In this document: in pieces, positions 7,309 through 22,029 of the stretch
Layout: each line of letters begins with the position of its first letter
Position numbering within the stretch: the stretch's first letter is position 1
DNA from: Chloroflexota bacterium
GTDB lineage: Bacteria > Chloroflexota > Chloroflexia > Chloroflexales > Roseiflexaceae
Reading direction: 5' to 3'
Assembly (NCBI GenBank): GCA_018969485.1
Contig: JAGWYG010000024.1
Coordinates: 1-40,136, forward strand
Length of the DNA stretch: 40,136 nt
Program-made: the position numbers and the translations under genes
The notes under the pieces: model-generated
What the model saw: the letters and a program-made list of their open reading frames with translations, nothing else
Told to the model about the DNA's origin: nothing
Databases searched by the model: none

Positions 7309-8358
7309 TCACGCGTCATCGGGCGGCAGCAGCGCAGCAGCGTCCGCGAGCGCCGCGCCCCACGCCAGGTCTTTGATGGCGCGAAACGCCGCGCGATCGC
7401 GCTTGAGGCCACGGGGCCGCGCGGTTCCGTCGCGCGTACAGAGCTCCACCTCGGCGTAGGCCTTGTTCCACGTCGGCTCGCGCAGCACCCGCGCCCAGAC
7501 CGGCTGCGTACCCGGCATCCGGCCGATGGCGCAGTAGCTGAACTTGTTCTCTTCCCACTGGCCCGACGCCGCACGGGCAGCGCGCTGGAACGCCGGGCGC
7601 ATGATGCGCTGTGGCGCGTGGCACCAGTCATCGTGGAGCGGGCACGGCAGATCGTGCGGGCACGGCGCCAGCGTCACGCCCGCCAGGCCGAGCAGGGTCG
7701 CGCGCGCCGCACGCACCACCGCAAATCCGTCGGGAGTGCCCGGCTCGACGACCAGCAGCACGCCGCTGCAGCGCATCCAGGCATTCGTGAGCAGGGCCAC
7801 GCGCTCGTCCGGGGCGATCTCGCCCAGCACATGCCCGATGACGACCAGATCACCCGGCGTCGGATGTCGCGCGACCGTCGTGCGGATGTCGCCCGCGCTC
7901 CAGCGCGCATCGCGCACGGCCGGATGCGGCGCGGCCTGGCACAGGGTCCGGCCGATGGCGATGAACGCATCCTCGCGTTCATGGGCGACCGCCCGCCGCA
8001 GCATCGGCCAGCAGGCGGCTGCCGCCCACAATGCCGTCCCCGGGCCGCTGCCGAGATCGAGCAGCGTGGCGGGCTGCCAGCCGGGGATACGCCGGGCGAC
8101 CGCCTGCATCGCGCCGCGCAACTGTGCGTATGTTGCCGGAACGAACTGCGCCAGGTAGCCGAGCACATCGCGCTCGCCACTCGCCAGCGCCCGTCCGTCG
8201 TCCTGGCGCGGTGCGCGATATCGCGCGCTCAGCGCACGGGCCGCGTGCTGCCAGCGCGCCGACGGCGCCTGTGCCAGCAGCGCCGCGATCGCACGCTCCA
8301 GATCACCTGGCAGCGTCAGCAGACGCCCGGCATCATCGGCAGCCATCGCCGCCCCCAT
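7309..8358 (-). CDS. Rsm22/METTL17-like small-subunit methyltransferase-family protein
   Basis: Homologue of mitochondrial Rsm22/METTL17 and bacterial Rsm22-like proteins linked to assembly of the small ribosomal subunit. A Rossmann methyltransferase fold is marked by LLDLGSGPGTAL (99-110). The family signature follows: APCPHDLPCPLHDDWCH with Cys233, Cys239 and Cys246, then EENKFSYCAIG, and VELC with Cys307. In METTL17 four cysteines in this arrangement bind a 4Fe-4S cluster, so this protein probably does too. It begins 9 bp after the stop of the Ser/Thr kinase gene, which suggests an operon. A second in-frame ATG at 8346, with GGGGGCGG upstream, could be the true start. Whether it still methylates RNA is not known. 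Confidence 0.82.
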   Translation of the reverse strand: MGAAMAADDAGRLLTLPGDLERAIAALLAQAPSARWQHAARALSARYRAPRQDDGRALASGERDVLGYLAQFVPATYAQLRGAMQAVARRIPGWQPATLLDLGSGPGTALWAAAACWPMLRRAVAHEREDAFIAIGRTLCQAAPHPAVRDARWSAGDIRTTVARHPTPGDLVVIGHVLGEIAPDERVALLTNAWMRCSGVLLVVEPGTPDGFAVVRAARATLLGLAGVTLAPCPHDLPCPLHDDWCHAPQRIMRPAFQRAARAASGQWEENKFSYCAIGRMPGTQPVWARVLREPTWNKAYAEVELCTRDGTARPRGLKRDRAAFRAIKDLAWGAALADAAALLPPDDA

Positions 8359-8367
8359 ATCGCCCGC

Positions 8368-9792
8368 TCACGGCTGCGGCGTCGCCGTCGGCTCAGGCGT
8401 CGCCGTCGGCTCAGGCGTCGCCGTCGGCTCAGGCGTCGCCGTCGGCTCAGGCGTCGCCGTCGGCTCAGGCGTCGCCGTCGGCCACACCGGCGGCACCACC
8501 GTCCACACCTCGAGCGTCGCCGACGGGCTCGGCTCCGGCGGCACCGTCGCCGTCGCCGTCGCCGCCGCCGGCGACGGACGGAGCGCCGGCGTCGCCGGCG
8601 CAGGGCGGGTCGGTGAGTGGCTCGTCCGCATCACTGCCGCATCGGGCGTCGCCGTCGCCGTCACTGGATCATCTGCGGCAAACCGCGCATAACCGAGCAG
8701 GATCGCCAGGGTGAGCAGCACAATCACGCTCACCACCACCAGCACCGTCGTCTGTGGCACAGTCATCGCGACCGGCGCCGCCGCCACCGGCGCACGAACC
8801 GGTGCCGCGCCGGTCGCCGGGGGCGCCGGCGTCAGCGGCGACGCCGACTGAATGCGTGCGACGCGGGCACGGCTCACCGCCGACGCATCGGCTGCCGACG
8901 CCGCCTCGGGCAGCACACGCGTCAGCGCCGCGAGGTGCGTGCGCGTCGCCAGCGGCATACCGTAGCGCCGCGACACATCGCGCAGCGCCGCGACGAAGTC
9001 GCTCCCCGTCTGGTAGCGGCGCTCCGGCTGTTTGGCCAGCGCCCGCGACAACACCACATCGAGCTCGGGGGGCAGATCCGTCGCGCCCTGGCTGATCGGT
9101 GGCGCCGGCTGCTGCGCATGCGCCGTCACGAGCTCCGACGTCGTCCCGCTGAACGGGATGCTGCCCGCGATGATCTCGTAGGCGGTCACGGCCAGCGAGT
9201 ACAGGTCGCTGCGACCATCGATGGTGCGCGCCGATGCCTGTTCGGGCGAGATGTATTCGGGCGTACCCATGAAGATGCCGGCGCGCGTGATGCGTTCGCC
9301 ACCGACCAGTTCCGGCGCGTGGGCGATGCCGAAGTCGGTCAGCAGGACGCGCCCGCCGGTGTCGATCAGGATGTTGTGTGGCTTGACGTCGCGATGCACC
9401 GCACCCTGGCGGTGGGCGTGATCGAGGGCATCAGCGACCGGCGCGATCAGCGCGATCGCCAGGCCGAGGCCGAGCGCGCCGCGCTCGCGCAGCACCGCGT
9501 AGAGCGTACGCCCGGTGACGTACTCCATCGCGATGAAGCGCCAGTCATCGATCTGGGCGACATCGTAGATCGTGACGATGGCAGGATGCCGCAGGTTCGC
9601 GGCGGTGATCGCCTCGTACTCGAAGCGCCGCGCGAACTCGGCATCGAGCGCGAGGTTCGGCAGCAACACCTTGAGCGCGACGGTGCGCCGCAGCACGGTG
9701 TCGACGGCGCGGTAGACGCGCGCCATGCCGCCGCGACCGATCTCGGCTTCGATGCGGTAACGCCCGAGTTGCTGGCCATTCTGCAGTGTCAT
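8368..9792 (-). CDS. Membrane Ser/Thr protein kinase, PknB type
   Basis: Hanks-type kinase of 474 residues. The catalytic domain (about 11-272) has the Gly-rich loop IGRGGMARVY, Lys41 in VALK, the catalytic loop HRDVKPHN (133-140), DFG (153-155), the GTPEY P+1 loop and DLYSL. A single membrane helix (about 348-368, VLVVVSVIVLLTLAILLGY) follows a Pro/Ala-rich juxtamembrane segment. The outside part is short and low-complexity, ending in six P-T-A-T-P-E type hexapeptides encoded by an 18-bp DNA repeat, with no PASTA domains. It is divergent from the FHA/winged-helix regulator and shares with it a palindromic promoter region; the FHA domain is a likely reader of its phosphothreonine. Rsm22 follows 9 bp downstream. 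Confidence 0.92.
   Translation of the reverse strand: MTLQNGQQLGRYRIEAEIGRGGMARVYRAVDTVLRRTVALKVLLPNLALDAEFARRFEYEAITAANLRHPAIVTIYDVAQIDDWRFIAMEYVTGRTLYAVLRERGALGLGLAIALIAPVADALDHAHRQGAVHRDVKPHNILIDTGGRVLLTDFGIAHAPELVGGERITRAGIFMGTPEYISPEQASARTIDGRSDLYSLAVTAYEIIAGSIPFSGTTSELVTAHAQQPAPPISQGATDLPPELDVVLSRALAKQPERRYQTGSDFVAALRDVSRRYGMPLATRTHLAALTRVLPEAASAADASAVSRARVARIQSASPLTPAPPATGAAPVRAPVAAAPVAMTVPQTTVLVVVSVIVLLTLAILLGYARFAADDPVTATATPDAAVMRTSHSPTRPAPATPALRPSPAAATATATVPPEPSPSATLEVWTVVPPVWPTATPEPTATPEPTATPEPTATPEPTATPEPTATPQP
8375..8482. repeat. 18-bp coding minisatellite in kinase tail
   Basis: Six 18-bp units, five of them exact (starting at 8393, 8411, 8429, 8447 and 8465; sequence TCAGGCGTCGCCGTCGGC), encode the P-T-A-T-P-E repeats at the extracellular C-terminus of the kinase. 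Near-perfect identity suggests recent expansion or slippage. Confidence 0.9.
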
Positions 9793-9806: not shown

Positions 9807-9842
9807 TGGTACAATCGCGGTAGCACCAACGCGATTGTACCA
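9807..9842. promoter_or_regulatory. Palindromic facing promoters of kinase and FHA regulator
   Basis: TGGTACAATCGCG (9807-9819) and its exact complement CGCGATTGTACCA (9830-9842) are perfect 13-base arms with a 10-base spacer. Each arm contains an extended -10, TGGTACAAT, one reading towards the FHA gene (9807-9815, +) and one towards the kinase gene (9834-9842, -). Predicted start points lie a few bases apart inside the spacer and the transcripts cross, so polymerase could occupy only one at a time. No -35 is seen on either side. Confidence 0.65.
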
Positions 9843-9894
9843 CATCGCGCCGTACGATCGGCGCGTTCGAATCACATATTCCACGAGGTACGCC

Positions 9895-10609: not shown

Positions 10610-11902
10610 GTGCATTCACGCCGCATTGAGGCGCCGTCGCGCATGCGTGGATCGATTGACATTCCCGGCGACAAGTCGATCTCGCACCGCGCCGTCATGT
10701 TCAACGCACTGGCACACGGGAGCGCGCGCATCACCCATTTCCTGACCGGTGCCGACTGCCTGGCGACGATCGCGTGCCTGCGTGCCCTGGGCGTGGCGAT
10801 CGAGCAGGAGGGCGATACCGTCGTCGTGCATGGCTGCGGCAGCGCTGGGCTGCGCGAGGCTGCCGATGTCCTCGACTGCGGCAACTCGGGGACGACGATG
10901 CGCCTGCTGGCGGGCGTGCTGGCGGGCTGCGACGGGCGGTTCAGCGTGCTGAGCGGCGATGCTTCGCTCCGCTCACGACCGCAACGGCGCATCGTCGCGC
11001 CGCTGCGCGCGCTGGGCGCGCAGATCGATGGCCGCGACGGCGGTGAGCGCGCACCGCTGGCGATCCGCGGCTCCAGGCTGCATGCCGGCAGCTATGATCT
11101 GCCGATCGCTTCGGCACAGGTCAAGAGCGCCCTCTTGCTGGCGGCGCTGTGCGCCGGCGTGCCGCTCGACCTCGGCGGCCGGATCGATGGGCGCGACCAT
11201 ACCGAGCGCATGCTGCGCGGCATGGGGGTGGCGCTGGCGCTCGAGGATGGCCGGCTGCGGCTGACGCCTGGCGCCGCACTGCAGCCCTGCTCGCTGCGCG
11301 TGCCGGGCGATCCGTCGTCGGCGGCGTTCTGGTGGGTCGCGGCTGCGATTCATCCCGATGCCGAGATCACCACCCGCGGGGTGGGGATGAATGCGAGCCG
11401 CGGCGGGGCGCTCGAGGTGCTGCAGGCGATGGGCGCCGATCTGACCGTGAGCGCGCTGCGCACCGAGGGCGATGAGCCGGTGGCCGACGTCACGGTGCGC
11501 TCGTCGGCGCTGCGCGGCACCACCATCGAGGGGGCGATCATTCCACGGCTGATCGATGAGCTTCCGGTGCTGGCGGTGGCGGCGGCGTGCGCTCGCGGCA
11601 CCACGGTGGTGCGCGATGCCCAGGAACTGCGCGCCAAGGAGACCGACCGGATCAGCACGGTGGTCGGCGGGCTGCGCGCGCTGGGCGTGGCGGTCGATGC
11701 TGCCGATGACGGATTTCGCATCGACGGCGGGCGGCGGCTGGCGGGCACGGCGCTCTCCAGCCATGGCGACCATCGCCTGGCGATGGCCTGGGCGGTGGCG
11801 GCGCTGGCGGCGCACGAGGCGGTGCTGATCGGCGACGCCGGTGCCGTCGATGTGTCGTATCCCGCCTTCTGGGCGACGCTGGAGCAGCTTGGTGCGGCCT
11901 GA
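10610..11902 (+). CDS. aroA: 5-enolpyruvylshikimate-3-phosphate synthase
   Basis: Sixth step of the shikimate pathway: joins PEP and shikimate 3-phosphate. The protein opens with [16 protein letters not shown], containing the PEP-binding Lys22 and Ser23 and Arg27, followed by [14 protein letters not shown]. The second half has [21 protein letters not shown] and [16 protein letters not shown], all hallmark segments. The 430-residue length is normal. The start is GTG, with AAAGGGGAG 7 bases upstream. galE follows after 29 bp on the same strand. Confidence 0.97.
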
Positions 11903-20769: not shown

Positions 20770-22029
20770 TCACGCGTCGTAGCCGCAATGGTGCAGCGCG
20801 GTGAGCGCGAGCGCCTGCGTCGCCAGCAGCAGATCGGCGATGGCGACATACTCGTCGGGGCGGTGGGAGCGGCGCACATCGCCGGGCCCGAACAGTACCG
20901 TCGGAATGCCACCGGCGTTCACCAGGTGGCGCATATCTGAACCATAGGTCATCCCGGCCACGCGGACCGGCTGGTGGTTCAGCCGGTGCAGCGCCGCCGT
21001 GACGCTGCCGACGATCGGCGCATCGCTGGCGATCGCCGCCGGGGCAAACTGCCCACCCCACCACGTGACGACGGGTGGGTGGTGCCGGAGCCACGGATCG
21101 GCTGCCGCAGCCCGCGCGACGGTAGCTTCGAACTGGGCGCGCGCCGCCGCCAGGTCTTCGCCGATCGCCACGCCGTAGCGCCCCTCGGCGACCAGGTGCT
21201 CGGGCACCGATGAGGGCCAGTTGCCGGCGCTGAGCGTTCCGATGCTCAGCGGATATGGCAGTGCGTAGCCGGCGAACCGCGGATCATGCCAGGCGGCGTT
21301 GCGCTCGCGCTCGAGTGCGAGCAGTGCCTGGTGGATCGGAATGAACGCCTCGATCGCGCTGACGCCCTCATCGCGCACGCAGCCATGCGCTGCCAGGCCC
21401 GGCACCGTGATCCGAACGTTCAGGGCCCCGGCCTGCGCCGGTGCCACGATCAGTTCCGTCGGCTCGACCACGATCGCCGCGTCGGCACGGTGGCCGCGCA
21501 GCAGCGTCGCCAGCGTGCCACAGCCGCCGTCCTCTTCGCCGATCACGCTGGCGACGAATAGCTGGCCGCGCAGCGTGACGCCAGCGCGGGCGATCGCGCG
21601 GGCGGCGAACATCGCACAGCACAGGCCACCCTTCATGTCGACGGCGCCACGACCGTACACCCGCCCGTCGGCGATGGTGCCTTGCCATGGCGGATACTGC
21701 CACAGCGCCGGATCACCGGCCGGCACCACGTCGACATGCCCGTTCAGCATCAGGCTGGGCCCGCCACGCGCCTCGCCCAGCACCCCGACGACGCCGATTC
21801 CGCTGTGTCGCTCGACTTCCTGGCAGAAATCGGGATGGCGCCGCAGCGCCGTCATGTCAATCGACCACTGGTCGACTGCCAGGCCGCTGTGGGTCAGCGC
21901 GGCAGCCATCGCGTGCTGCATCGCATCTTCCTCGCCGTCGAGACTGCGGATGGCGATCATGGCACACAGCGTCTCGAGAAGTGCCGGCATATCGATCGCT
22001 GCCAGCACGCGATCTTCGACCGTCGTCAC
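20770..22029 (-). CDS. M20 family metallo-deacylase/peptidase (ArgE/DapE/ACY1-like)
   Basis: Di-zinc hydrolase of 419 residues. Ligands and catalytic residues are in place: His98 and Asp100 (NGHVDVVP), Asp131 (GRGAVDMKGG), Glu165/Glu166 (IGEEDGG) and Glu189 (VEPTE), with a C-terminal His in RRSHRPDEY. The family removes acyl groups from amino acids such as acetylornithine or succinyl-diaminopimelate; with no arginine or lysine genes nearby the substrate is open. The start is GTG 22029, with AAGGAG 9 bases upstream, rather than the longer open frame that runs into the intergenic region. An extended -10 (22148-22156) lies upstream. Confidence 0.88.
   Translation of the reverse strand: MTTVEDRVLAAIDMPALLETLCAMIAIRSLDGEEDAMQHAMAAALTHSGLAVDQWSIDMTALRRHPDFCQEVERHSGIGVVGVLGEARGGPSLMLNGHVDVVPAGDPALWQYPPWQGTIADGRVYGRGAVDMKGGLCCAMFAARAIARAGVTLRGQLFVASVIGEEDGGCGTLATLLRGHRADAAIVVEPTELIVAPAQAGALNVRITVPGLAAHGCVRDEGVSAIEAFIPIHQALLALERERNAAWHDPRFAGYALPYPLSIGTLSAGNWPSSVPEHLVAEGRYGVAIGEDLAAARAQFEATVARAAAADPWLRHHPPVVTWWGGQFAPAAIASDAPIVGSVTAALHRLNHQPVRVAGMTYGSDMRHLVNAGGIPTVLFGPGDVRRSHRPDEYVAIADLLLATQALALTALHHCGYDA

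Follow-up and report, generated by a model that had tools for sequence, protein, structure and literature searches.

Predicted face-to-face promoters between divergent genes for a Ser/Thr kinase and an FHA regulator in the order Chloroflexales

Genes and inverted repeat at the locus

The window analysed here, a stretch of 40,136 nucleotides from a Chloroflexota bacterium of the family Roseiflexaceae, includes a gap of 102 bases between two divergent genes, one for a Ser/Thr protein kinase and one for a regulator that combines an FHA domain with an OmpR-type winged helix (Table 1). The gap holds an inverted repeat with two perfect 13-base arms (9807-9819 and 9830-9842) and a 10-base centre, which reads TGGTACAATCGCG-GTAGCACCAA-CGCGATTGTACCA, exactly as described in the first-pass annotation of this DNA. 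The length of the arms is by itself only mildly unusual: a random 40 kb is expected to contain 0.2 perfect inverted repeats whose arms have 13 bases and whose gap does not exceed 30 bases, and the window has two. What distinguishes the repeat at 9807-9842 is its location and its conservation. The other perfect 13-base repeat, at 21505-21556 (CGTCGCCAGCGTG), has a 26-base gap and GC-rich surroundings.

Table 1. Features in and around the kinase/FHA intergenic region, with positions in the window.
Feature	Position	Strand	Evidence and remarks
Rsm22-like methyltransferase, probable same operon as kinase	7309..8358	-	PF09243 5.2e-65; 9 bases downstream of kinase gene
Membrane Ser/Thr protein kinase, 474 aa	8368..9792	-	PF00069 3.1e-42; HRD and DFG motifs, one likely transmembrane segment, TPEP repeat tail
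Left arm, extended -10 box TGGTACAAT, putative FHA-regulator promoter	9807..9815	+	sequence, motif enrichment, conserved in 55 loci; predicted start ~9822
Perfect inverted repeat, 13-base arms, 10-base centre	9807..9842	.	exact symmetry limited to source species; sister species arms 10 bases
Second inverted repeat GCGATTGTACCACATCGC (GCGAT-N8-ATCGC), candidate operator	9831..9848	.	centred on kinase -10 box; arms covary
Right arm, extended -10 box TGGTACAAT, putative kinase promoter	9834..9842	-	sequence, enrichment; 55/58 with adjoining kinase, 0/6 without; predicted start ~9827
GAGGT, likely ribosome binding site of FHA regulator	9885..9889	+	by eye
FHA domain and OmpR-type winged-helix regulator, 223 aa	9895..10566	+	PF00498 2.6e-22, PF00486 2.6e-21; orthologs across order
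aroA (EPSP synthase), probable same operon as FHA gene	10610..11902	+	PF00275 1.6e-110; 43 bases downstream of FHA gene

The gene that follows the FHA gene is aroA in 31 of the 35 loci with enough sequence, which represent four families; the promoter of the FHA gene probably also drives this gene of the shikimate pathway, and the linkage hints at the signal sensed by the regulator. The outside tail of the kinase (8368-8450) ends in tandem TPEPTA repeats, not in PASTA domains.

A kinase gene of this type next to a gene for an FHA regulator is known from Mycobacterium tuberculosis, where EmbR and PknH are encoded in one operon and EmbR comprises a winged helix, a BTAD domain and, at the end, the FHA domain (PMC9239209). 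The likeness, a Ser/Thr kinase gene adjoining the gene for a regulator with FHA and OmpR-type winged-helix domains, is found in 58 of 64 Chloroflexales loci, and by analogy with EmbR-PknH it is plausible that the two proteins act as writer and reader of one signal. However, the Chloroflexales genes are divergent, and the regulator encoded in the window does not belong to the EmbR (SARP) family, since its FHA domain (residues 28-90) precedes the Trans_reg_C domain (143-214) and a domain search of the protein gave no match to BTAD. In the literature, no paper was found on the kinase/FHA gene pair in Chloroflexi, and none that maps transcription starts in Chloroflexus.

Facing extended -10 boxes and their conservation

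Each arm of the repeat contains one extended -10 box, TGGTACAAT, and the arms are the only two places in the window where this sequence occurs (0.05 expected). As a facing pair, TGGTACAAT...ATTGTACCA with a gap of 3-33 bases, it occurs once in the 4.02-Mb source genome, and the reversed control not at all; this and the other genome-wide counts are pattern searches compared with a reversed-motif control. The motif TGNTANAAT is found 94 + 80 times in the same genome, against 8 + 6 for its control (~12-fold enrichment); counts in ten Chloroflexales genomes show it enriched in each of them. Such an enrichment is what a working extended -10 element is expected to give, and it is independent of the kinase/FHA locus. 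Judged by these counts, the Chloroflexales clade has in TGNTANAAT a genuine promoter-like motif, and because of its enrichment over the control the reading of both arms as sigma-A-type extended -10 promoters, facing each other and serving one gene each, is well supported, as had been proposed from the sequence of the window. The hexamer GTGTCA, 18 bases upstream of the left box, would make a weak -35 element. The boxes are 18 bases apart in the window and lie outside the predicted starts, the positions of which we infer from those of the boxes; the predicted leaders are ~73 nt long for the FHA gene, with its GAGGT ribosome site, and ~36 nt for the kinase gene.

For comparison we used 64 Chloroflexales loci with an ortholog of the FHA regulator (we take the genomes G003, G045 and G042 to be those of Roseiflexus sp. 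RS-1, Chloroflexus aurantiacus J-10-fl and Herpetosiphon aurantiacus, respectively). Of the 58 loci with the kinase as divergent neighbour of the regulator, 55 (22 genera, four families) have -10 boxes that face each other, and a facing pair is absent from all six loci without a detected adjacent kinase, two of which (G043 and G053) are cut by contig ends; the independent losses of the kinase neighbour number about three (G028, G051/G120 and G125). This tracking of the kinase by the right box is directly established, like the sequence, the motif enrichment and the conservation. In loci without an adjoining kinase the right arm is missing, yet an extended -10 is usually kept upstream of the regulator gene, and upstream of the relocated kinase of G051 an extended -10-like TGGTATCAT can be seen by eye. 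The exceptions among loci with the kinase are G046, where the right box is degenerate, and two genomes of a single genus (G049 and G113 of g17), in which the genes are separated and the right box is lost or degraded. Arm identity among the 22 genera is 0.89-0.93, against ~0.30, a nearly random level, for the flanking 9-mers; the arm value is somewhat inflated by the choice of loci by a pattern over the same bases, though 55 of the 58 loci passed. Beyond Chloroflexales no clear orthologs of the FHA regulator were found, and scores fall from ~1e-71 to 1e-31 and below.

As far as the sequences indicate, the conserved unit is the two overlapping promoters and not the palindrome, because the 13-base symmetry is not kept and the spacing of the boxes ranges from 7 to 21 bases. 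The palindrome was therefore rejected as a strict conserved unit: the symmetry covers 10 bases in the sister species (G001) and is imperfect elsewhere. The "identical promoters" and the "perfect palindrome" of the first-pass annotation accordingly describe the source species, while in most other genera the box of the regulator reads TATAAT and that of the kinase TACAAT. The annotation had also named the loss of the palindrome from relatives that keep the gene pair as evidence against its proposal, and here the outcome is divided: the exact symmetry is gone already in the sister species and the right promoter is lost or degraded in g17, but the facing promoters persist nearly everywhere else. 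Two families have a spacing of 15-21 bases and the remaining two one of 7-9, and values of 10-14 never occur. The difference between the classes is close to one helical turn, from which we draw no conclusion, because it may go back to one ancestral event.

The facing layout is also rare. In ten genomes, facing pairs of the form TGNTANAAT-N5-24-ATTNTANCA number 1-3 per genome, with no matches to the control, and no pair but that between the kinase and the FHA regulator recurs in every one of the ten. Back-to-back pairs with a gap of 0-30 bases number 0-7 per genome.

A second repeat over the kinase -10 box

In two families (f1 and f4), complementary pentamers stand on either side of the kinase box, giving GCGAT-N8-ATCGC, and they change together: they are replaced by GTCAT/ATGAC in part of genus g8 and by TGAT/ATCA in part of g3. 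Of the 87 cells in these two families, 60 show complementarity, against a mean of 43 in row shuffles, and none of 2000 shuffles reaches 60; when only one genome per genus is retained, which is the sole correction for relatedness in this test, p is ~0.01. The covariation suggests a site for a dimeric regulator that would cover the kinase promoter, and the FHA regulator is the obvious candidate for binding it. The exact copy of GCGAT-N8-ATCGC is single in the genome, and a genome-wide search found no regulon of further sites, near matches being at most a few times more frequent than in the reversed control; many of these near matches are probably ordinary extended -10 sites.

Probable competition between the promoters and alternative explanations

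Our preferred reading, to which we assign a probability of roughly 0.8, is that the site consists of face-to-face overlapping divergent housekeeping promoters, at which the two genes would compete for polymerase and thereby have their output coupled and balanced, possibly with a regulator acting at the kinase -10 box. The left box would drive the FHA-winged-helix regulator and probably also aroA behind it, and the right box the kinase; with predicted starts ~5 bases apart, a polymerase at one promoter would cover the other, so that only one of the two could initiate at any moment. The balance may be shifted by a dimeric regulator bound to the repeat over the kinase -10 box; the FHA protein is the most likely candidate for this role. 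The footprint of polymerase extends roughly from -50 to +20, as used in PMC3134472, and because the predicted starts lie at ~9822 (+) and ~9827 (-), the two footprints would overlap by tens of bases. From this geometry we infer that polymerase bound at either promoter is likely to exclude binding at the other, which agrees with the first-pass annotation. The crossing of transcripts that it offered as the mechanism fits the predictions poorly: the overlap amounts to only ~6 nt in the window and disappears in the two families with a spacing of 7-9 bases, so that elongating polymerases are unlikely to collide and the transcripts are unlikely to pair as antisense RNAs. Exclusion alone is competition, not memory, and we regard the site as a device that couples or balances the two genes, possibly with autoregulation, rather than as a proven switch.

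The strongest competing explanation, which we nevertheless consider rather unlikely, is that two independently needed promoters overlap through the shortness of the gap, their exclusion having no selected role. The gap in the window is indeed only 102 bases long, and each box could be conserved through two independent needs within such a gap and not through selection for exclusion. Two further observations count against our preferred reading: with a range from 7 to 21 the spacing drifts and no exact geometry is held, and genus g17 keeps the pair with the genes apart and the right box lost or degraded. The drifting spacing also favours independently needed promoters, as do the lineages that have separated or lost the partner and retained the regulator. 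On the other hand, facing pairs are otherwise rare in Chloroflexales genomes and usually different between genomes, and the overlap is kept in 22 genera even where there is room to separate; because the distances between the kinase and FHA starts vary from about 96 to 424 bases, a cramped gap alone does not explain it. Less likely again, and offered as a tentative extension of competition between the promoters, is an exclusion device selected throughout the order, which would make kinase and phospho-reader in alternating bursts at a set ratio, with phosphorylation-dependent binding of the FHA protein at the covarying repeat closing a feedback loop.

It is improbable that the palindrome is mainly an operator, with its arms as half-sites for a dimeric regulator and their likeness to -10 boxes secondary. 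The perfect dyad in the window, the DNA-binding regulator encoded by the adjoining gene and the overlap of the covarying repeat with the right arm would all agree with an operator, but the 9-base motif is enriched genome-wide, far from the regulator gene, and the spacing of 7-21 bases among relatives is unlike the fixed spacing of half-sites. Moreover, the conserved bases of the arms are those of an extended -10 element, the variants TATAAT, TACAAT and TAGAAT are all -10-like, and where no kinase adjoins it is the right arm that is missing, while the regulator gene usually keeps its extended -10.

A shade less probable than the operator is a bistable switch, the reading given in the first-pass annotation, in which the exclusion of promoters would be combined with feedback from the phosphorylated FHA protein. 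The facing promoters, the possible operator in the covarying repeat and the position of the kinase next to a phosphothreonine reader are all compatible with such a compact switch. A close parallel is scbA/scbR of Streptomyces, in which divergent genes, one of them encoding a DNA-binding regulator, have convergent promoters, with a 53-bp overlap of transcripts and antisense RNA; in the model of that system bistability is lost with interference alone and antisense pairing is required (PMC3134472). The overlap of ~6 nt or none at the kinase/FHA site falls short of the tens of bases concerned, and exclusion by itself would have no memory, which speaks against a switch.

Finally, an RNA hairpin or a terminator/attenuator encoded by the repeat is very improbable and was rejected, since each predicted transcript begins within the loop and contains only one of the arms. 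Strong folding is predicted for a read-through RNA (-24.2 kcal/mol, z -5.0), but the leaders of the predicted mRNAs are not more stably folded than shuffled sequences (z -1.2 and +0.6), there is neither a T-run nor a terminator call at the repeat, and T/C differences between the arms in relatives break the pairing on one strand.

Promoters in this arrangement belong to a known class, the face-to-face divergent promoters, reportedly set out by Beck and Warren in 1988. The control regions of bioA/bioBFCD and argE/argCBH in E. coli are of this kind, and the classic cases share an operator. The likeness consists in opposing, overlapping promoters of divergent genes, predicted ones in the present case, with -10 boxes that point at each other; here, in contrast, both boxes are extended -10 elements, the linked genes encode a kinase and an FHA regulator, conservation is order-wide, and the operator is only a candidate. 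The novelty lies in the depth of the conservation and in the pairing of a kinase with an FHA regulator: other examples of facing promoters are single cases, whereas here the arrangement is kept in 22 genera and tied to a kinase and a phospho-reader. This makes the locus a good natural system for asking if the overlap of promoters is itself selected to set the ratio of two signalling partners, with ready-made controls in the lineages where the kinase is no longer the neighbour or the two genes have moved apart.

Two further systems differ more in geometry. The pR and pL promoters of phages P2 and 186 are also face-to-face, 40-60 bp apart, and form a proven lysis/lysogeny switch (PMC7498355), with regulator sites between and over them, whereas the -10 boxes at the kinase/FHA site are 7-21 bases apart. 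In symmetrical bidirectional promoters (Warman et al. 2021, described in PMC10268837), -10 elements on opposite strands overlap and the diverging starts lie outside them, 7-25 bp and usually 18 bp apart. The site in the window resembles these in having predicted starts on both strands within a few bases, but it is ruled out as a promoter of that type, since its boxes are separated by 18 bases and the starts lie inside. Within Chloroflexales, a second facing pair of extended -10 boxes, TGGTACAATGTTNNNAATATTGTANCA with a spacing of 9, is common to two Chloroflexus genomes (L199, G045:C1:3592228-3592254, and G054:C1:1168295-1168321), where the flanking divergent genes resemble those for a MerR/B12-binding regulator and a nucleotide-sugar epimerase.
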